Shown here: positions 259-8,719 of the stretch, one piece after another
Numbering within the stretch: the first letter of the stretch is position 1
Layout: each line of letters opens with the position of its first letter
From: Flavobacterium piscisymbiosum
GTDB taxonomy: Bacteria > Bacteroidota > Bacteroidia > Flavobacteriales > Flavobacteriaceae
Length of the DNA stretch: 64,000 bases
Assembly (NCBI RefSeq): GCF_020905295.1
Contig: NZ_JAJJMM010000001.1
Location: 6,421,861 to 6,485,860 of the forward strand
Reading direction: 5' to 3'
Notes under the pieces: model-generated
Told to the model about the DNA's origin: nothing
What the model saw: only the letters and a program-made list of their open reading frames with translations
The model's database searches: none
Position numbers and translations under genes: made by a program

Positions 259-636
259 TTGAAGAAGTTTATTATCATAGTACTTTCCTGTATGCTTCTG
301 GTGCCATCCTTTGGCAGTTTCTTTGTTTATACCTCTTTCAAATTAAATCAGGATGAAATTTCGAAAACCATTTGTGTACAACGCAAAATGCTTTTTAATT
401 CCTGTAACGGTCGATGTGAACTTCAAAAAAGTTTAAAAAAATACGCCGACAACGAAAAGAAAATGCAAAACAATCTAAAAGAAAAAGTAGAGATTGTTTA
501 CATTCAAAATACAATTACAAACGAATTCAAATTAGTGAGTCCAATAGAATCTAAAGCAAAACTTTTTGCTGTTTTAGATCAAAAACCTATTGCTGTTGCG
601 ACAACTACTTTTCGTCCTCCATCCTATTTTATATAA
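259..636 (+). CDS. small membrane-anchored C-x9-CNGRC protein, copy A
   Basis: This 125-residue protein has one N-terminal hydrophobic segment (about 3-25) and then a polar, lysine-rich, probably periplasmic domain. A conserved C-x9-C-NGR-C cluster sits at about 39-53, and the C-terminus is FRPPSYFI. I do not recognise a named family. The cysteine cluster suggests metal binding or a disulfide. An ATG at 199 would add 20 residues, but the paralogue at 4331-4708 starts at the matching TTG and is exactly the same length, and both have a similar AAACAACGAAA sequence just upstream, so I choose the TTG at 259. It is first in the apparent copper-handling gene set and is about three-quarters identical to the second copy by eye. 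Seen: motif and duplication. Inferred: a role in metal handling. Confidence 0.75.
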   Translation: MKKFIIIVLSCMLLVPSFGSFFVYTSFKLNQDEISKTICVQRKMLFNSCNGRCELQKSLKKYADNEKKMQNNLKEKVEIVYIQNTITNEFKLVSPIESKAKLFAVLDQKPIAVATTTFRPPSYFI

Positions 637-743
637 TTTTTAAAATCAAATTTCAATTGTATTGAGATGATTTTTCGTTGTTCATAAAACAACGAAACAG
701 TGCTTACGCACATTTTAAATTTAAATTATATAAAATTCATAAA

Positions 744-1547
744 ATGAAAAATACTTTATACAAAGCATTTGCTATTGTTGCAATTGCTGTATCACTAGTT
801 TCATGTTCAAACGACGATAACAACGAAACAACTTCAAGAAACGGAAATATTACTTTAAAATTCGACAATGCTTTTGGCGCCAACGACCTAATTTTAAACA
901 CACAAGGCAACACCACTTCAAACAACGAAGTACTAAAAATTAGTCTTGTAAAATATATTGTTAGCAACGTTGTACTTACAAAAGCTGACGGAACTACTTT
1001 TACCTACCCTAAAAGCAAAAGCTATTTTATCGCAGACGAATCTACTGCTGCCGGACAACAGTTTAAACTAACAGATATTCCTGCAGGAGATTACGTAAAA
1101 GTAAAATTTGGCATTGGAGTCGACGAAGAACAATGGAAATTAGGCGCGGCCGGACAAGGCGATTTTTTGGCTCAGGCAGATGATGCAGGAATGCTGTGGT
1201 CATGGGCTGCAGGATATAAATTCTTTGCTCTCGAAGGAACTTTTACCTCTGCAACTGTTACCACACCAACTCCTTTTATGATTCACACCGGAAAAACCGG
1301 AACCGACTATAATTATACCGAAGTAACCGTAGACCTGCCAACAAAAGCTTTGGTTCGCGATAACATCACTCCTGCCGTTCATATTATTACAGATCTTTCT
1401 AAAATTATCGACGGCAAAAACAAAATCAAACTTTCTGATAACAACGCAGGCGGAATGGGTGCCATGATTATGGGCGGAGCCAACTTACTGTTGATTACGC
1501 AAAACATCAGCGCTATGTTTAAAGTAGATCACGTACACAACGACTAA
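744..1547 (+). CDS. MbnP family copper-binding lipoprotein
   Basis: A 267-residue lipoprotein: hydrophobic signal then LVSC with the lipid cysteine at residue 21. The hallmark is the MLWSWAAGYKFFALEG block at about 150-165, the W-x-W-x-x-GY-x-F-x-x-x-E signature of the MbnP family (also called the MXAN_0976 family). A histidine lies in FMIHTG at about 181. Characterised members bind copper in the periplasm after a partner di-haem enzyme (MbnH) oxidises a tryptophan to kynurenine. That partner type is encoded next at 1823. The ATG at 744 is preferred over an upstream TTG because it gives a clean lipoprotein signal. No methanobactin biosynthesis genes (mbnA/B/C) are present. Copper as the metal is inferred from the family. 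Confidence 0.88.
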   Translation: MKNTLYKAFAIVAIAVSLVSCSNDDNNETTSRNGNITLKFDNAFGANDLILNTQGNTTSNNEVLKISLVKYIVSNVVLTKADGTTFTYPKSKSYFIADESTAAGQQFKLTDIPAGDYVKVKFGIGVDEEQWKLGAAGQGDFLAQADDAGMLWSWAAGYKFFALEGTFTSATVTTPTPFMIHTGKTGTDYNYTEVTVDLPTKALVRDNITPAVHIITDLSKIIDGKNKIKLSDNNAGGMGAMIMGGANLLLITQNISAMFKVDHVHND

Positions 1548-1591
1548 ATTTATTTTAAGGAGCACAAAAATTTCGGTTCACCAGAAATAAC

Positions 1592-1662
1592 GTCCCGCTA
1601 TCCACTATATCTTTTTTGTCCGCCGCGGCGGACAAAAAAGGATATCGCTCCTATCGGGGCTA
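1592..1662 (-). repeat. TAGCCCCGAT-family dispersed repeat with 28-bp perfect palindrome
   Basis: Read on the minus strand it begins TAGCCCCGATAGGAGCGATA and ends near AGCGGGAC, the conserved ends seen again at 3174-3316, 15588-15733 and 58218-58292. Its core 1612-1639 is a perfect palindrome centred on CCGCGG. An outer inverted repeat (1561-1574 with 1668-1680) encloses it, so the MbnP/MbnH intergenic region can form a large cruciform or RNA hairpin. Confidence 0.75.
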
Positions 1663-1822
1663 AACGAGAAATTTTGTGCTTCTAATAAACCAAAGAGCAA
1701 CACACAAAGAAATTTTAATGCCATTGTAATTTGTGCAAATTCGTGCAATTGCTTCGCCTGTTCGCTAACGCTCGAGCCGTGGCAAAAAAATAAATCGGAT
1801 TGTTCTTTATAAATAAAAAATC

Positions 1823-2863
1823 ATGCTGAAAATAAAATATTTTCTATGGCTGATGATTCCGTTGTTATGGAGTTGCTCTAGTGAGGAAGATGAATATGTA
1901 AATATTCCGTTGGAATTTACTGTTCCGTCAAACTTTCCTGCTTTAGCGTACAATATTGCACTGAATCCGCCAACAGAAAAAGGCTTTGAACTGGGCAAAA
2001 AACTATTCTACGATGGGCGTTTAGCGTCTGATGGAGTAGTTTCCTGCGGGTTTTGCCACATACAAGCCAACGCTTTTACGCATCACGGACACACAGTAAG
2101 TCATGGCGTAGATAATGCCCAAGGAACAAGAAACACGCCATCGATTCAGAATCTGGCGTATCAAACTACATTTATGTACGACGGAGCTGCAGATCATTTG
2201 GACTTGCAGCCTATAATTCCGTTGACGAGCATTATCGAAATGAACGGAAATTTGAACGCTATTTTGAAAATGATGAAAGCCGACAAAGAATATCAAAAAT
2301 TATTTGGGCTAGCTTTTGACGATGGCGCCATTACAACCGAAAATATGCTAAAAGCACTTTCGCAATTTATGGTGATGGTAGTTTCCTCCAATTCAAAATT
2401 TGACAAATACCGACGTAATGAAACAGGCGGAACTTTAACATCAGACGAGTTGGCGGGTTACGATTTGTTTAAATCAAAATGCGCTTCTTGCCACGCAACC
2501 GATTTACAAACCGACAATTCGTTTAGAAATAATGGTTTGGCTGTAAACCCAATGGTAAATGATGTTGGTCGTTATAAAGTTACAGAACTGGCGAGTGATT
2601 ATTACAAATTTAAAGTGCCAAGTTTGCGTAATGTAGAGGTTTCAGGACCTTATATGCACGACGGAAGATTTGGAACTCTCGAAGGTGTTTTGGATCATTA
2701 TGCAAGCGGTATAGAAAACTCGGCAACGCTGGATCCTATATTAAAACAGAATGGAAAATTTGGAATTTCGCTTTCTGATACGGATAAAAAACAAATCATA
2801 GCTTTCCTGAAAACGTTGACGGATAATGAATATTTAAAAGATAAACGTTTCTCTGAATATTAA
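1823..2863 (+). CDS. MbnH-like di-haem cytochrome c peroxidase family lipoprotein
   Basis: A 346-residue protein of the bacterial di-haem peroxidase / MauG superfamily. A lipoprotein signal ends at Cys18 (LLWSC). Two c-haem sites are visible: CGFCH at 75-79 and CASCH at 220-224. The typical PSLRN segment and a YMHDGRFGTLEGVLDHY stretch occur near 270-290. It is about the usual length for MbnH and follows the MbnP gene, matching the known MbnP/MbnH pairing (MXAN_0976/0977 families) in which the di-haem enzyme oxidises a tryptophan of MbnP. The 275-bp gap before it holds a large palindromic repeat, so it may be transcribed separately or with attenuation. A simple hydrogen peroxide-reducing role is possible, but the neighbour argues for the MbnH role. 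Confidence 0.88.
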   Translation: MLKIKYFLWLMIPLLWSCSSEEDEYVNIPLEFTVPSNFPALAYNIALNPPTEKGFELGKKLFYDGRLASDGVVSCGFCHIQANAFTHHGHTVSHGVDNAQGTRNTPSIQNLAYQTTFMYDGAADHLDLQPIIPLTSIIEMNGNLNAILKMMKADKEYQKLFGLAFDDGAITTENMLKALSQFMVMVVSSNSKFDKYRRNETGGTLTSDELAGYDLFKSKCASCHATDLQTDNSFRNNGLAVNPMVNDVGRYKVTELASDYYKFKVPSLRNVEVSGPYMHDGRFGTLEGVLDHYASGIENSATLDPILKQNGKFGISLSDTDKKQIIAFLKTLTDNEYLKDKRFSEY

Positions 2864-3016
2864 CACGTTTGTGTAAATTATTTCTAACACATAGAAACAT
2901 AGATTAAAATTTAAAAGAAGGCGTTTCACTTATTTAAAATACACATAGCTTACTATGTAGAAAAAAACAGATTTCAATAAAATAGGTGAGCATTTTGATG
3001 AAGTATATCACCAAAG

Positions 3017-3118
3017 TTGTCATTTCGACGGAGGAGAAATCTTCGCGAGAAGCTCGACAAAAATTGAATTCTCGTCGCAGAGTTACTTACGGAGATTTCT
3101 CCTCCGTCGAAATGACAA
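3017..3118. repeat. perfect 26-bp inverted repeat, GTCATTTCGAC family
   Basis: Bases 3017-3042 (TTGTCATTTCGACGGAGG and on) are the exact reverse complement of 3093-3118, with a 50-bp loop that is itself partly self-complementary. A related but diverged unit (CTCCGTCAGGATGACAA) lies near 22399-22415. Confidence 0.8.
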
Positions 3119-3173
3119 GATTGTGTTATCAAGAATGTCAAAAAAACAAAATACATAATGAAAACCGGAGTCC

Positions 3174-3316
3174 TAGCCCCGATTGCAGTGGAAAGCCTTT
3201 TTGAAAAAAGACCTAATTTTTCTTGGGTTTATAAAGCGACCAGCGGAAGCTTTATAAAAACATAGAAACATGGGATTTTGAGAAAAGCTTGAAACGAAAA
3301 GCGGGATCAGCTTCTA
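3174..3316 (+). repeat. TAGCCCCGAT-family dispersed repeat
   Basis: Starts TAGCCCCGATTGCAGTGGAA and ends near GAAACGAAAAGCGGGATCAG. The same two ends, with a different middle, occur at 15588-15733 (same orientation) and 58218-58292 (opposite orientation). It lies just upstream of the barrel gene at 3329. Confidence 0.75.
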
Positions 3317-3328
3317 AAAATAATAAGA

Positions 3329-4294
3329 ATGAAAATGAGAAAAATAATAGTAATGTTGACGCTTTTGGCTGGATTTTCGGCCTTTAGTTTTACCGTAAAA
3401 GATAGTATTTCGGGCTTTACGTTTCAGCGTTTGGCGATGATGGAAGATTTTGATTGTGATGCCTGCGGATGTTCTGCAAGTGGCGGAAGCATGGGTTTTG
3501 GTTCTATGCTGAACAATAATTTTGTGGGTTTAAGATATATGAAACAAAGTTACACGAGCCGCGACGGAATCTTCGCCAATTCGCCGTGGATAGATGAAAA
3601 TTTTAATACGATTCAGGCTTGGGCAAGAATTCCGGTAACAGAGAAAATTCAGATTTCGGCATTGGTTCCGTATCATTTTAACGAAAGAGCTTTGACGGCC
3701 GGAACTGAAAATATTGAAGGTTTGGGAGATATTACCGTGATGGCTTTGTACACGGTTTTTGAAACGAAAAAAGACAGTACGTTTTTTACGCACAAGGTAA
3801 ATTTGGGTGGTGGTGTAAAACTTCCGACAGGAAAATTTACTGAAGCCAATAATTTAGGAAGCGTTAATCAGAGTTTTCAGTTAGGAACCGGAAGCTGGGA
3901 TTTTCCTATAGTTTCTGAATATGTGGTGAAACATAAAAATTTGGGATTAAACACAACGCTGAATTACATTTTTAAAACTGAAAACAGTAAAAACTATCAA
4001 TACGGCGATCAGTTTAATTATGCAGGAACGTTCTTTTATTTGTTCGATTTAAAATCGGTTCAAATTGTTCCACAGGCTGGTTTGGCTGGTGAAGTTTACC
4101 AGACTAACAAACAGCATAATTTGGATTTACCCAATACGGCGGGTGATATTTTGTTTAGCAAATTTGGCATTGAAGCCGGAAAAGATAAATTTTCGGTTGG
4201 GTTAAACGTTATGCTGCCTATTAGCCAAAACTTATCAAGCGGTAATATGGAGGCGAATTACAGATGGAGTGTAAATTTGAATTATACCCTTTAA
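3329..4294 (+). CDS. outer-membrane beta-barrel transporter-like protein with CDACGC motif
   Basis: A 321-residue protein with an N-terminal signal (MLTLLAGFSAFSF) followed at about 42-53 by DFDCDACGCSASGG, a cluster of three cysteines exposed right after the signal. The rest alternates polar and aromatic residues in barrel style and ends in YRWSVNLNYTL, typical of outer-membrane strands. It resembles the Phenol_MetA_deg / transporter-like barrels found in flavobacteria, but the substrate cannot be read from sequence. A second ATG six bases downstream is an equally good start. It lies between the MbnH-like gene and the second small cysteine protein (36-bp gap), so it belongs to the same metal-related set. 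The CDACGC cluster could bind copper; that is inference. Confidence 0.72.
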   Translation: MKMRKIIVMLTLLAGFSAFSFTVKDSISGFTFQRLAMMEDFDCDACGCSASGGSMGFGSMLNNNFVGLRYMKQSYTSRDGIFANSPWIDENFNTIQAWARIPVTEKIQISALVPYHFNERALTAGTENIEGLGDITVMALYTVFETKKDSTFFTHKVNLGGGVKLPTGKFTEANNLGSVNQSFQLGTGSWDFPIVSEYVVKHKNLGLNTTLNYIFKTENSKNYQYGDQFNYAGTFFYLFDLKSVQIVPQAGLAGEVYQTNKQHNLDLPNTAGDILFSKFGIEAGKDKFSVGLNVMLPISQNLSSGNMEANYRWSVNLNYTL

Positions 4295-4330
4295 TTTTTT
4301 AAACCAGAATAAAAACAACGAAAACAAGCT

Positions 4331-4708
4331 TTGAGAAAAATCATTATCATATTTCTTTCCTTTATGCTTTTGATGCCATCGTTTGGCAGTTTCTGCGTTT
4401 ATACCACATTCAAATTAAACCAGGAAGAAATTTCGAAAACCATTTGTGTACAGCGCAAAATGATTTTTAATTCTTGTAATGGTCGTTGTGAGCTTCAAAA
4501 AAGCCTTAAGAAATACGCTGACAACGAAAAGAAAATGCATGATAATCTGAAAGAAAAAGTAGAAGTAATTTATATTCAGAATATTTCGTTGAGTAATTTC
4601 AAATTAGTCGCACCAATAACATCGCGAAAAGCCATTTTTGCTTATTCCGATAAAAAACCAATTTCGGTTTCGAATGCTACTTTTCGTCCTCCCTCTTATT
4701 TGATATAG
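4331..4708 (+). CDS. small membrane-anchored C-x9-CNGRC protein, copy B
   Basis: A 125-residue paralogue of the protein at 259-636, aligning end to end without gaps. It is identical through most of EISKTICVQRKM and FNSCNGRCELQKSLKKYADN. It starts at TTG: the frame has a stop at 4310 and no upstream ATG, which also settles the start of copy A. It has an N-terminal membrane segment, the C-x9-C-x3-C cluster and an FRPPSYLI end, plus one extra cysteine (SFCVYT) near residue 22. Only 36 bp separate it from the barrel gene upstream and about 93 bp from the TonB-dependent receptor downstream, so it is probably in that operon. Family name unknown to me. Confidence 0.78.
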   Translation: MRKIIIIFLSFMLLMPSFGSFCVYTTFKLNQEEISKTICVQRKMIFNSCNGRCELQKSLKKYADNEKKMHDNLKEKVEVIYIQNISLSNFKLVAPITSRKAIFAYSDKKPISVSNATFRPPSYLI

Positions 4709-4801
4709 ATTTAAGTTCCGCTTTTCAATTCTTTTGAAGGGCTTTTACTCGTATTCTACCAAGAGAATATCGGTTACTTTTTAAAATTTATATCATTTAA
4801 A

Positions 4802-6961
4802 ATGAAGAAAATATACCTCATCCTATTACTTATAGGACAATGTGTCGCAGCTCAAAATCAAACAGAAAAAGACACAACAAAATCTCAGGAACTGGAAAAT
4901 GTTTTTATAACAGCCAATCGTACAGCCACTTTACGAAAAGAAACTCCAGTTGCTATAAGCAAAATAACTGCCAAAACTATTAATGAAACCAAAGCTACGG
5001 CGGTTTACGAAATCATCAATAAAACACCCGGAGTATTGATGGTAAATTTAGGAAATGAACAGCACATGATGTCGATTCGTCAGCCTATGACTACCAATGC
5101 TTATTATTTATATCTGGAAGATGGTTTGCCAATTCGCCCCATGGGAATTTTTAATCACAATGCTTTACTTGAAATTAACCAGTTTAATTTGCAAAGTATC
5201 GAAGTTGTAAAAGGCCCTGTTTCTTCGCTATACGGACCTGAAGCGGTTGGTGGAACTATCAATTTAATTTCGCTAAAACCGCCGGTTGATCCGGAATTTA
5301 AATTTGGTGTTCAGGCTGATAATTATGGTTACAGAAGATTTCAGGCTGCCGGAGGAGCAACGATCGGGAAAATTGGTTTTCATATTGCCGGAATTTCGAG
5401 TTTGCAGGAAAATGGCTGGATGACCTATTCTGATTATAATAAAGACAATCTGAATGCGAGAATTGATTATAACATCTCCTCTTCGACCCGCTTGATCAGT
5501 AATACGATGTATGGAAAATATTATTCGGACATGAGCGGAACGGTTAATGAAGATTCTTTCAACAATAGAACGTATCAAAGTACTTCTAATTTTACCTATA
5601 GAAAATCTGACGCTTTACGAACAAGATTAACACTGGAACATGATTGGAACAGTAATTCGAGCAGTTATATTACAGGATATTTAAGAGACAATAAATTAGG
5701 TCAAAATCCTTCGTACGGAATCAGATGGAGCCCAACTGTGAATCCTACAACGGCAAAAGGAGAAGTAAATTCTAATAACTTTAAAAGTTACGGCGCCATT
5801 GCACAACATACTCAAAAGTTCGATTTTTTGAATACAAAATTGGTTGCCGGAGCTTTATATGATTATTCTCCAGTAACCTATTGGTCGTATGTTATTGATC
5901 TAAAAGCCAATCTAAATCCCGGAGAAGTTGGTAAACAAACCGTAGATTCTTATGAAATCATTGCACAACATCCGGACTCAAAACTGGCAGATTATAATGC
6001 AGACATTTATAATGCTGCAGGTTATGCACAAGTAAGTTTTAATCCCATCGAAAAACTGATTATTACGGTTGGCGGGCGTTATGACAATATGAAAGTGAAT
6101 TACAATAATGCTCTTGACAATTCTACCGGAAGTAAGCTTTATGATAAAGTAACTTTTAAAGCTGGTGCCAATTACAATCCAGTTGAGTTTGCCGGATTTT
6201 ACGGCAATTATTCTCAAGGTTTTGCGCCTCCGGGAATCACCTCTATTTTTAGAACCAAACCTGGAACCGGCGGAACAACTGGCGTTCCTGCTGATTTTTA
6301 TTATAATCTGGAACCTGCCACTTTCGATAATTACGAAATTGGCGGATGGCTTTCTTTCTTTCAAAATAAATTAAATTTTGATTATGCTTTGTATTATATG
6401 GAAGGTAAAAATGAGTTGCTAAACATTAAACTCGCTGATAATTCAACAGATTATCGTTCGGCTGGAGAAACGCATCATAAAGGAATTGAGTTTGGCGCTT
6501 CTTACCGACCTTCAAAACAATTCAACATTCGTCTTGGCGGAACTTATGCACAACATACTTATATCGATTTTAAACTTTCGGACAAACCAAGCGATCCTGT
6601 TCAGGATTTAAACGGAAAAGAAATGCCGGCAGCACCCAAATGGTCCGGAAATTCTGAGGTAAGTTATTACCCCAACTGGCTCCCGAATCTGAGAACTTCG
6701 GTAGAATGGCAACTTGTTGGAAGTTATTATCAGGATCAGATAAATACCGTAAAATATAGCGGTTATAATATATTCAACGCCAGAGTTGGTTATCAATGGA
6801 AAAAAATTGAAGTGTACGGAAACGTGCTTAATCTAACGGATAAATTGTACGCTTATAATGTTTCCCGAGCCAATACCGCAAACGCTCAACCCACTTATAC
6901 CGCAGCCGCACCAAGAACTTTTGTGTTTGGTATACAGTACAATTTTTCATTAAAAAAATAA
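4802..6961 (+). CDS. TonB-dependent receptor
   Basis: A 719-residue outer-membrane receptor for active uptake of a metal or metal complex. A signal peptide (about 1-18, cut near VAAQ) is followed by the plug domain (about 35-150), with IEVVKGPVSSLYGPEAVGGT the classic plug signature. A 22-strand barrel then ends in FVFGIQYNFSLKK. There is no N-terminal carboxypeptidase-regulatory extension and no SusD partner, so it is a metal/siderophore-type receptor rather than a glycan one. A methionine/histidine-rich stretch in the plug (HMMSIRQPM and PMGIFNHN, about 85-120) would suit copper. It follows the MbnP/MbnH genes and precedes a PepSY protein. Substrate is inferred. Confidence 0.9.
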   Translation: MKKIYLILLLIGQCVAAQNQTEKDTTKSQELENVFITANRTATLRKETPVAISKITAKTINETKATAVYEIINKTPGVLMVNLGNEQHMMSIRQPMTTNAYYLYLEDGLPIRPMGIFNHNALLEINQFNLQSIEVVKGPVSSLYGPEAVGGTINLISLKPPVDPEFKFGVQADNYGYRRFQAAGGATIGKIGFHIAGISSLQENGWMTYSDYNKDNLNARIDYNISSSTRLISNTMYGKYYSDMSGTVNEDSFNNRTYQSTSNFTYRKSDALRTRLTLEHDWNSNSSSYITGYLRDNKLGQNPSYGIRWSPTVNPTTAKGEVNSNNFKSYGAIAQHTQKFDFLNTKLVAGALYDYSPVTYWSYVIDLKANLNPGEVGKQTVDSYEIIAQHPDSKLADYNADIYNAAGYAQVSFNPIEKLIITVGGRYDNMKVNYNNALDNSTGSKLYDKVTFKAGANYNPVEFAGFYGNYSQGFAPPGITSIFRTKPGTGGTTGVPADFYYNLEPATFDNYEIGGWLSFFQNKLNFDYALYYMEGKNELLNIKLADNSTDYRSAGETHHKGIEFGASYRPSKQFNIRLGGTYAQHTYIDFKLSDKPSDPVQDLNGKEMPAAPKWSGNSEVSYYPNWLPNLRTSVEWQLVGSYYQDQINTVKYSGYNIFNARVGYQWKKIEVYGNVLNLTDKLYAYNVSRANTANAQPTYTAAAPRTFVFGIQYNFSLKK

Positions 6962-7120
6962 GTTTTTTGCCACAGCTTAAAGATTAAAAAAGTTTTTTTT
7001 ACCATTAAGAGATTAAGAAAGTTAGGCTTAATGAATCTTAATATCTTAATGGTTCAAATTTTAAAATTCCTTAATTTTTTAAATCCTTTTAAACTATGGC
7101 AAATCATAAAAACTCAAAAT

Positions 7121-8719
7121 ATGAGCAAAGAAATAAATAAGGATAAAAAGTCTAGAAAAAAGGATTCAAAGTTTGTCAAGAAAATCAAACAGCACATGTA
7201 CAAATGGCATCGTGCGATTGGGTTAGTAACCATTATTCCGGTGATATTCTGGACGCTTTCAGGATTGATGCATCCGTTTATGGCACATTTTTTTAAACCT
7301 GAAATCGCACATGACAAACTCGAAGCGCAAGTAATTGATAAGACGCAATTGCACTTTTCGATTCAGGAAGTTCTAGAGAAAAATGAACTAACGCAATTCA
7401 AAAATTTCAGAGTTGTTTCGTTCAACAATAAAACCTATTATCAGCTGAAAACTATAATTGGTGAATTGTGGTATTTTGATGCTTCGACCGCTGAAAAACT
7501 GGAAAACGGAGATCAAAAATATGCCGAATGGCTTTCGCGTTATTTTCTGGACGATCAAAAAAGTGCCGTAAAAAATAGTGAAGTTGTAACCGAATTTACT
7601 TCGCAATACAAATATGTCAATCGTTATTTACCGGTGTACAAGTTGAGTTTCGATCGTCCGGATGCTATGCAGGTTTATGTAGAAACATCTTCGTCTAAAT
7701 TGGCAACTTATAACCCAACGTCAAGACAAGCGTTTATCTGGTTTTTTGATACTTTTCATAACTGGTCGTTTATAGATGCGATTACAAACAACAGCATCCG
7801 AATCATTACGATGATTTTCTTATTGTCCATCATTGGCTTTTCTGCCTTGAGCGGAATTTTAATTTATGGCTTACTATGGAAACAATTTAAAAAAACAGAT
7901 AGTTTAGCGCCTAAAAAAGGTCTTAGAAAATACCATCGCCAAATAGGAATTTGGATTTCTCTTTTTACTTTAACATTTGCTTTTAGCGGAGCCTATCACG
8001 CCACAACAAAATGGAATCCGTACACTTTATCGCAAATGGTTTACGAACCAACTTTTGTAACCAAAGAAATTCCGGTGGCCAATAATAAGCTGGATCTAGA
8101 CTGGAGCCGTTTTCAAAACGCGAGTATTATTACTTTAAATGACACAACATATTTCCGTTGTGAATTGCTTGAAAAACAAAAATTCAAAAGATCGAAATCA
8201 GATTCTAATTCAAAATGGAATAAAAAAGACGATCCAAAATCTGAGGTAATTTACATTAATGCTGCGACCAATAAAGTTGTGCCAAATCTGGACTTTCGAT
8301 ATGCTGAATTTCTGGCTTATTATTTTACAGATGGCGCTCCTAAACTTGCTTGTTGCGAAATGGATCAAAGTTCAGATGAACCTCATGTTTCTTTAGAAAA
8401 CGTAAAATTATTAGATTCTAAACTCCTAATCGATTTTAGCAGTCGCGAATATGGTTTTGTCAACAAAAGATTGCCGGTCATAAAACTGGCTTATGACACA
8501 CCCGAAAAAACGACTTATTTTATCGAAACTTCGACTTCAAGGTTAGCTGCAGTAGTTAAAAATAGCGATATGGTCGAAGGTTACTCGTTTGCTATTCTCC
8601 ACAAATTTTTATTTATGGATTGGGCAGGAAAAAACATTCGGGATCTAACAATGGTTGTAGCCGCACTAACTATTTTGATTGTAAGTATTTTGGGATTTAT
8701 TTTGTTTTTGAAGAAATAG
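7121..8719 (+). CDS. PepSY-associated transmembrane protein
   Basis: A 532-residue inner-membrane protein of the PepSY_TM type often found next to TonB receptors for iron or copper. After a basic cytoplasmic start it has a first membrane helix preceded by YKWHRAIGL. Periplasmic PepSY-like stretches follow (FIETSTSRLAAVV is the second copy, resembling VETSSSKLATYN earlier). A second helix pair is preceded by RKYHRQIGIW, and the last helix is at the C-terminus. The paired histidines before helices resemble haem- or metal-reductase proteins of this group. An LACCEMD cysteine pair lies in a periplasmic loop. An upstream ATG at 7031 falls inside a TTAAGA repeat, so I take 7121. Probable role: reduction or release of the imported metal in the periplasm. 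Confidence 0.8.
   Translation: MSKEINKDKKSRKKDSKFVKKIKQHMYKWHRAIGLVTIIPVIFWTLSGLMHPFMAHFFKPEIAHDKLEAQVIDKTQLHFSIQEVLEKNELTQFKNFRVVSFNNKTYYQLKTIIGELWYFDASTAEKLENGDQKYAEWLSRYFLDDQKSAVKNSEVVTEFTSQYKYVNRYLPVYKLSFDRPDAMQVYVETSSSKLATYNPTSRQAFIWFFDTFHNWSFIDAITNNSIRIITMIFLLSIIGFSALSGILIYGLLWKQFKKTDSLAPKKGLRKYHRQIGIWISLFTLTFAFSGAYHATTKWNPYTLSQMVYEPTFVTKEIPVANNKLDLDWSRFQNASIITLNDTTYFRCELLEKQKFKRSKSDSNSKWNKKDDPKSEVIYINAATNKVVPNLDFRYAEFLAYYFTDGAPKLACCEMDQSSDEPHVSLENVKLLDSKLLIDFSSREYGFVNKRLPVIKLAYDTPEKTTYFIETSTSRLAAVVKNSDMVEGYSFAILHKFLFMDWAGKNIRDLTMVVAALTILIVSILGFILFLKK

Follow-up and report, generated by a model that had tools for sequence, protein, structure and literature searches.

Two separable modules, most likely for copper uptake, in one Flavobacterium gene cluster, and an MbnP tryptophan whose conservation follows MbnH

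Do the seven genes near the start of the window studied here form a single metal-import pathway or more than one? The window is a stretch of 64,000 nucleotides, the final 64 kb of contig 1 (NZ_JAJJMM010000001.1) in the 6.49-Mb genome of Flavobacterium piscisymbiosum (G000). The genes are consecutive on its + strand and encode a small protein with three cysteines (3-Cys), an MbnP-family lipoprotein, an MbnH-like di-haem partner, an outer-membrane beta barrel, a second 3-Cys protein, a TonB-dependent receptor, and a PepSY membrane protein. An earlier note, made from the sequence alone, had read them as one complete import route, and its seven open reading frames (ORFs) were all recovered on that strand, at or near where it had placed them. 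To our knowledge, the passage of copper across the outer membrane of Bacteroidota is largely an open question, and a literature search, within its limits, returned no paper on these clusters and nothing useful on MbnP outside methanotrophs. The reading that we favor, with modest confidence, is that the locus combines two neighboring modules that can occur apart and that take up metal, most likely copper. Module A would act through an MbnP oxidized by MbnH and a channel, and module B through the TonB receptor and PepSY.

Two modules in one chromosomal slot

As judged by gene order across genomes, the seven genes are two modules, A (3-Cys, MbnP, MbnH, and barrel) and B (3-Cys, TonB receptor, and PepSY). 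A search with a profile of the barrel, whose closest named relatives are in Flavobacterium, found 360 loci, the best 80 of which are the named loci counted here. The full seven-gene order was present in 16 of the 80, both flanking genes being in view in 13 of these 16. Such recurrence implies that the order is not a chance arrangement, and it bears out the co-occurrence in other Flavobacterium genomes that the earlier note had proposed as a check. Module A stood alone between both flanking genes in 15 of the named loci and had neither flanking gene in view, which is how we defined the class "elsewhere," in 30; the remainder were variants or contig ends.

The slot is marked upstream by secA (PF07517) and downstream by an ORF that presumably encodes an rRNA methylase. 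This same secA slot contains module A alone in loci L067 and L068, module B alone in L086 to L090, and A followed by B in the window. Among 100 relatives, the barrel was found in 24 and the receptor (E value of 1e-60) in 15, and both occurred only in G000 and, weakly, in G083, compared with 3.6 genomes expected by chance; in the stretches fetched from relatives, the A set and the B set stood apart. One obligatory route made of receptor, modified binder, and reductase would fit the common strand and order of the seven genes and the 16 loci that repeat them, but it is very improbable given the scarcity of genomes with both markers and the slots and named loci occupied by one module alone. The single seven-gene pathway was thus rejected, since the modules are found apart, each alone in the same slot in different relatives.

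The earlier note had also remarked on duplicated cysteine proteins. The two in the window (259..636 and 4331..4708, both on the + strand) each have three cysteines and are 74% identical. The two copies were 70 to 85% identical in 16 of 17 tandem loci and 46% identical in the other one, L161. In the simplest reading, every module carries its own 3-Cys gene and the duplicate is the mark of two modules, which would explain why the window has a pair.

Several variants were seen among these loci. In L164, an orphan second 3-Cys gene comes after module A, with neither receptor nor PepSY; it may be what is left of module B. Two different MbnP/MbnH pairs per operon, in the order MbnP-MbnH-MbnP-MbnH-barrel, were present in L135, L138, L139, L144, L128, L129 (whose stretch starts inside its first pair), and L310. 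The genome of the window itself encodes a second MbnP/MbnH pair, without a barrel, in L082 (G000:C1:5617001-5637000), along with two 3-Cys genes, a YtkA-like protein, and a 670-amino-acid ORF without a Pfam match. Inverted-repeat elements were spotted by eye in intergenic positions of the window, at about 3019-3116 and 1608-1645. A search of a plasmid collection gave just 2 and 3 weak matches.

MbnP, MbnH, and the residues that follow MbnH

The second gene (744..1547, +) encodes a lipoprotein of 267 amino acids that matches the Pfam family MbnP (PF20243) with 148.7 bits against a gathering cut-off of 27 and reads WSWAAGY at the W-x-W-x-x-GY signature reported in the earlier note. The third (1823..2863, +) encodes a lipoprotein of 346 amino acids with a CCP_MauG domain (PF03150, 164.7 bits) and two CxxCH motifs, both present in 25/25 aligned relatives, which places it in the MauG/CCP di-haem family; its nearest solved relative is MbnH 6e1c (E value of 2.3e-40), in line with the di-haem partner proposed earlier. 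We take 7l6g and 6e1c, with PF20243, TIGR04052, and TIGR04039, to represent the MbnP/MbnH pair of Methylosinus trichosporium. Both proteins of the window scored under the corresponding NCBI equivalog cut-offs (42.4 bits against 140 for MbnP in TIGR04052 and 221.3 against 362.85 for MbnH in TIGR04039), and they are therefore best described as divergent members. The MbnP of the window does not belong to the four-cysteine type named in the title of 7l6g, the lipobox C21 being its sole cysteine. Its match to 7l6g was weak (E value of 0.042) and ranked behind an unrelated signal-peptide match (E value of 0.011); in this weak alignment, GMLWSWAAGYKF lies opposite GMAWNWQAGRRF and FMIHTGKTG opposite WMVHVGSTG. 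A profile built from seven MbnPs gave 0 matches among PDB sequences.

Which residues of MbnP depend on MbnH? In 398 genomes of the genus, MbnP was found in 153 (E value of 1e-45) and MbnH in 146 (E value of 1e-98), and in some module A loci without MbnH the barrel directly follows MbnP. Removal of duplicates left 126 of the 158 MbnP ORFs that reached 235 amino acids, 116 with MbnH downstream, 9 without, and 1 partial; the last (G404), in which MbnH has an internal deletion, was placed in neither group, and G431, a frameshifted contig of a metagenome-assembled genome, was lost to the length filter. With residues numbered from the start at 744, W152, the first tryptophan of W-x-W (codon at 1197..1199, +), was conserved in 116/116 MbnPs with MbnH and in 2/9 without it. 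In the other seven, the residue was S or M in two cases each (M beside a two-residue insertion) and G, L, or P in one case each. Across genomes, the pair that the earlier note had recognized thus includes a tryptophan whose conservation depends on MbnH.

The same dependence holds, on this comparison, for H181 (codon at 1284..1286, +), which aligns with a histidine of 7l6g in the weak match. In the MbnPs of module A (102 with MbnH and 9 without), W152 was present in 102/102 and 2/9, respectively, and H181 in 102/102 and 3/9; this set was picked by H263, so that H263 is no control there. When the nine MbnPs without MbnH were compared at the 54 columns conserved in at least 95% of those with it, the most frequent deviations were at W152 (7/9), H181 (6/9), and M243 (5/9); all but the first two of the 54 columns deviated in at most 5/9, and 38 never did. 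W154, H213, H263, and H265 were kept in 9/9, the last two in the C-terminal HVH (codons at 1530..1538, +). Conservation was looser outside module A: of all 116 MbnPs with MbnH, 109 had H and 7 had E at position 181, H213 was H in 103, and H263 and H265 were H in 102 each, whereas W154, like W152, was W in all 116.

A tree of the 111 module A sequences, built without the regions of W152 and H181, gave by parsimony 7 state changes for MbnH, 6 for W152, and 5 for H181, and W154, H213, H265, and Y117 were never lost in it. On supported branches, W152 went with MbnH in 3.6 of 4 independent pairs on average and never against it. Among the cases without an adjacent MbnH, no contig edge is involved in G494 (one contig), G011, G563, G371, or the Flavobacterium zepuense locus L173, and L171, L172, and L183 derive from metagenome bins. 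Locus L169 has MbnH, as found by tblastn. In L295 (G404), the deletion in MbnH surrounds the second haem site and MbnP still has W-x-W, which may reflect fresh decay or an assembly error.

Since the retention of W152 tracks MbnH, W152 is likely the substrate of MbnH, and we propose that H181 is part of the metal site that MbnH would make. Several results temper this view. The four independent pairs of the tree-corrected sign test give a median P of 0.125 and cannot reach 0.05, and the Fisher P of 1e-9 treats relatives as independent. Five of the nine genomes without an adjacent MbnH (G026, G340/L171, G341/L172, G371, and G563) hold an MbnH-like gene elsewhere, 44 to 48% identical, and W152 was kept in two of them and lost in three, so that we rejected the rule that an MbnH-like gene elsewhere in the genome always preserves W152. 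The other four (G011, G342/L173, G343/L183, and G494) had only weaker or partial MbnH matches, and W152 was lost in all. The deviation of M243 in five of the nine also allows for some general relaxation, which leads to another explanation, namely, that MbnP simply decays once MbnH is lost and that the losses of W152 and H181 mark no modification site. The long end branches of the MbnPs of L173, L297, L294, and L085 would agree with such decay; nevertheless, the 38 columns without deviation, the open reading frames, and the retention of W154, H213, and H265 in all nine make it improbable. The modification of W152 by MbnH remains our preferred reading, and the naming of W152 and its partner H181 as the residues released by MbnH loss makes the idea directly testable in a genus that is tractable in the laboratory.

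The 3-Cys family, the barrel, and the parts of module B

The 3-Cys protein of module A (TTG start at 259, with an in-frame ATG at 199) has a hydrophobic N-terminal helix, C39, C49-x-G-x-C53, and a PP near the C terminus. Neither 3-Cys protein has an accepted Pfam or NCBIfam family, the one of module B (4331..4708) giving a sub-threshold match to TGF_beta (17.9 bits against 27), and the structure model of the first is of low confidence (pLDDT of 63; pTM of 0.19). A 30-row profile (E value of 1e-4) matched in 100 of 247 sampled Bacteroidota genomes. From these places across the phylum, we chose 80 stretches by hand, spread over families and not at random; 75 of them yielded 76 family genes (none in L217, L236, L249, L255, and L260 and two in L265). 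The pattern C-x4-13-C-x-G-x-C lay within the first 110 residues in 75/76 of these profile-found genes and further on in the remaining one, which has a longer start, and PP was found near the end in 74/76. Invariance in our earlier 3-Cys alignments does not count as evidence, because these had been selected by the cysteine motif.

What do these genes accompany? The first gene downstream (n = 69) matched TonB plug in 31 cases, MbnP in 12, YtkA in 7, and Phenol_MetA_deg in 6, and 11 of the 69 were barrels according to our own profile; the second (n = 55) matched CCP_MauG in 12, TonB receptors in 11, PepSY in 5, and SCO1 in 4. Among the 25 of 144 families listed for 72 control ORFs outside the operons, there was no TonB, MbnP, CCP_MauG, or PepSY. 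All 15 MbnPs in these operons had an adjacent MbnH and W-x-W, and a barrel was present in 11. The comparison flags two components that would recur in metal uptake among Bacteroidota, the unclassified 3-Cys family and the channel with the thiol motif.

The barrel (3329..4294, +) is a beta barrel in the structure model, with the predicted fold of the COG4313 channel 4rl8, which we take to be related to PF13557. The earlier note had seen its CDACGC motif (residues 43-48; 3455..3472, +) right after the signal peptide; by eye, the motif lies some 20 to 25 residues past the likely end of that peptide. The motif was invariant in 48 aligned barrels, a set found in part with the CDACGC pattern itself; among barrels beside 3-Cys genes across the phylum, 14/23 had C-x-x-C-[GN]-C. 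Most members of the barrel family have a CDxCGC motif. Some distant barrels that follow 3-Cys genes (L187, L230, L231, L241, and L245) begin with a GRPDGHAPIxVMGDHxH-like sequence, methionines and histidines replacing the thiols of CDxCGC.

In module B, the TonB-dependent receptor (4802..6961, +; PF00593 and PF07715) has the Met/His-rich plug described in the earlier note, reading QHMMSIRQPM...FNHN. When this plug was used to search 43 large downstream genes together with 3 earlier loci and the window itself (47 sequences in total), NEQHxM and FNHN were found in 14 of 17 plug matches, including the window's own. The sole cysteine of the receptor is C14, in its signal peptide; membership in OprC was rejected, as there is no plug cysteine and thus no CxxxM. 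The last gene (7031..8719, +) is a PepSY_TM protein (PF03929), as the earlier note had it. It has H60, H81, H86, H243, H302, H323, H524, C441, and C442 conserved in 25/25 orthologs more than 50% identical to it. The adjacent pair C441-C442 is encoded at 8351-8356 and, like the seven histidines, is invariant in 25/25 PepSY proteins of module B.

Metal, mechanism, and known systems

The lipobox is followed by acidic residues in both lipoproteins of the window (LVSC and then SNDDN in MbnP; WSC and then SSEED in MbnH), as in an acidic lipoprotein export signal. At least two acidic residues at positions +2 to +6 were found in 86/89 MbnPs, 67/73 MbnHs, and 69/198 of the remaining called ORFs in those loci, in counts of lipobox-called rows where each ortholog, often a close one, is counted singly and where a single sequence accounts for 36 of the 69. 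Known surface-export signals of Bacteroidota include SDDFE (Flavobacterium johnsoniae) and SDDDD (Bacteroides fragilis), as given in a passage of PMC5080379. From this likeness, MbnP and MbnH are likely displayed on the cell surface, as for MopE, SACCP, and CorA, which favors the surface placement that the earlier note had offered as one option for its copper binder.

In module A, MbnP would thus sit on the surface, and MbnH would oxidize its W152, probably to kynurenine; a copper site would then include this altered residue together with H181. Passage through the outer membrane may be passive, by way of the COG4313-like barrel, with copper perhaps handed from MbnP to the CDxCGC thiols of this channel and carried onward in the periplasm by the membrane-anchored 3-Cys protein, if the flow is indeed inward. 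In module B, the receptor would import copper or a complexed metal through its QHxM/FNHN ligands, with PepSY as a putative inner-membrane redox partner and the second 3-Cys protein in the same carrier role. Extended to Bacteroidota as a whole, and more tentatively, a 3-Cys membrane protein might serve exchangeable outer-membrane modules for metal, perhaps copper: either TonB receptor and PepSY, or an MbnH-modified surface MbnP, with W152 and H181 in the site made by MbnH, and a thiol-bearing COG4313-like channel, maybe independent of TonB.

We base the assignment of copper on the families, both MbnP and MbnH having links to this metal, on neighbors such as the SCO1, superoxide dismutase, and E1-E2 ATPase genes beside module A in L079, and on the thiol and Met/His motifs. 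The substrate could instead be another metal or complex (iron, zinc, nickel, or a metallophore), the redox chemistry of MbnH being unrelated to copper. In keeping with this, the best scores of the receptor are to siderophore and haemin receptor families, all under cut-off; siderophore receptors commonly have PepSY partners; and AraC-type regulators adjoin 3-Cys genes in L078, L083, and L099. The copper link of the pair, SCO1 genes adjoining some related clusters, and the same motifs argue against such a substrate, which we regard as unlikely. The analogy with MopE and CorA, from a passage of PMC3912023, argues in the same direction. Some points count against our own proposal of copper modules with surface MbnP and MbnH: besides the scores under the equivalog cut-offs, SCO1 also matched 2 of the 72 control ORFs, and in the part of PMC3912023 concerned, CorB and the Methylomicrobium alcaliphilum peroxidase were mainly periplasmic, SACCP being the only one of the three on the surface, and the peroxidase mutant of M. 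alcaliphilum grew faster.

How do the two modules compare with known systems? The window receptor resembles OprC of Pseudomonas in being TonB type with Met/His residues in the plug; unlike OprC, which binds copper through a plug CxxxM and a barrel HxM (a passage of PMC8610252), it has QHxM in the plug and no CxxxM. The window shares with Methylosinus MbnP/MbnH the paired genes, a W-x-W and a following histidine that align in the weak match, and a di-haem partner nearest to 6e1c. It differs in scoring under both equivalog cut-offs, in having one (lipobox) cysteine instead of the four of 7l6g, in the addition of a barrel and a 3-Cys protein to the operon, and in the absence of an MbnB above cut-off. 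The earlier statement that methanobactin genes are missing holds for this marker, the single TIGR04159 match in the whole genome being weak (47.9 bits against 325), in a search that did not include MbnA and MbnC. Section 12 of a 2013 survey (PMC3621798) mentions MbnP/MbnH pairs near TonB receptors, says that close MbnP homologs had at that time not been linked to copper by any data, and finds MbnP not markedly similar to MopE or CorA in sequence. A passage of a 2022 paper (PMC9601215) treats the role of the pair as unknown, with methanobactin maturation or copper release as speculation. The CorA/CorB and MopE/SACCP systems resemble module A in placing the gene of a surface copper binder beside that of a di-haem peroxidase (PMC3912023, in the same part). 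In CorA, kynurenine 62 surrounds the copper with H64 and H114, and it is the first residue of a W-x-H (aromatic-x-ligand) pair, as W152 is of W-x-W.

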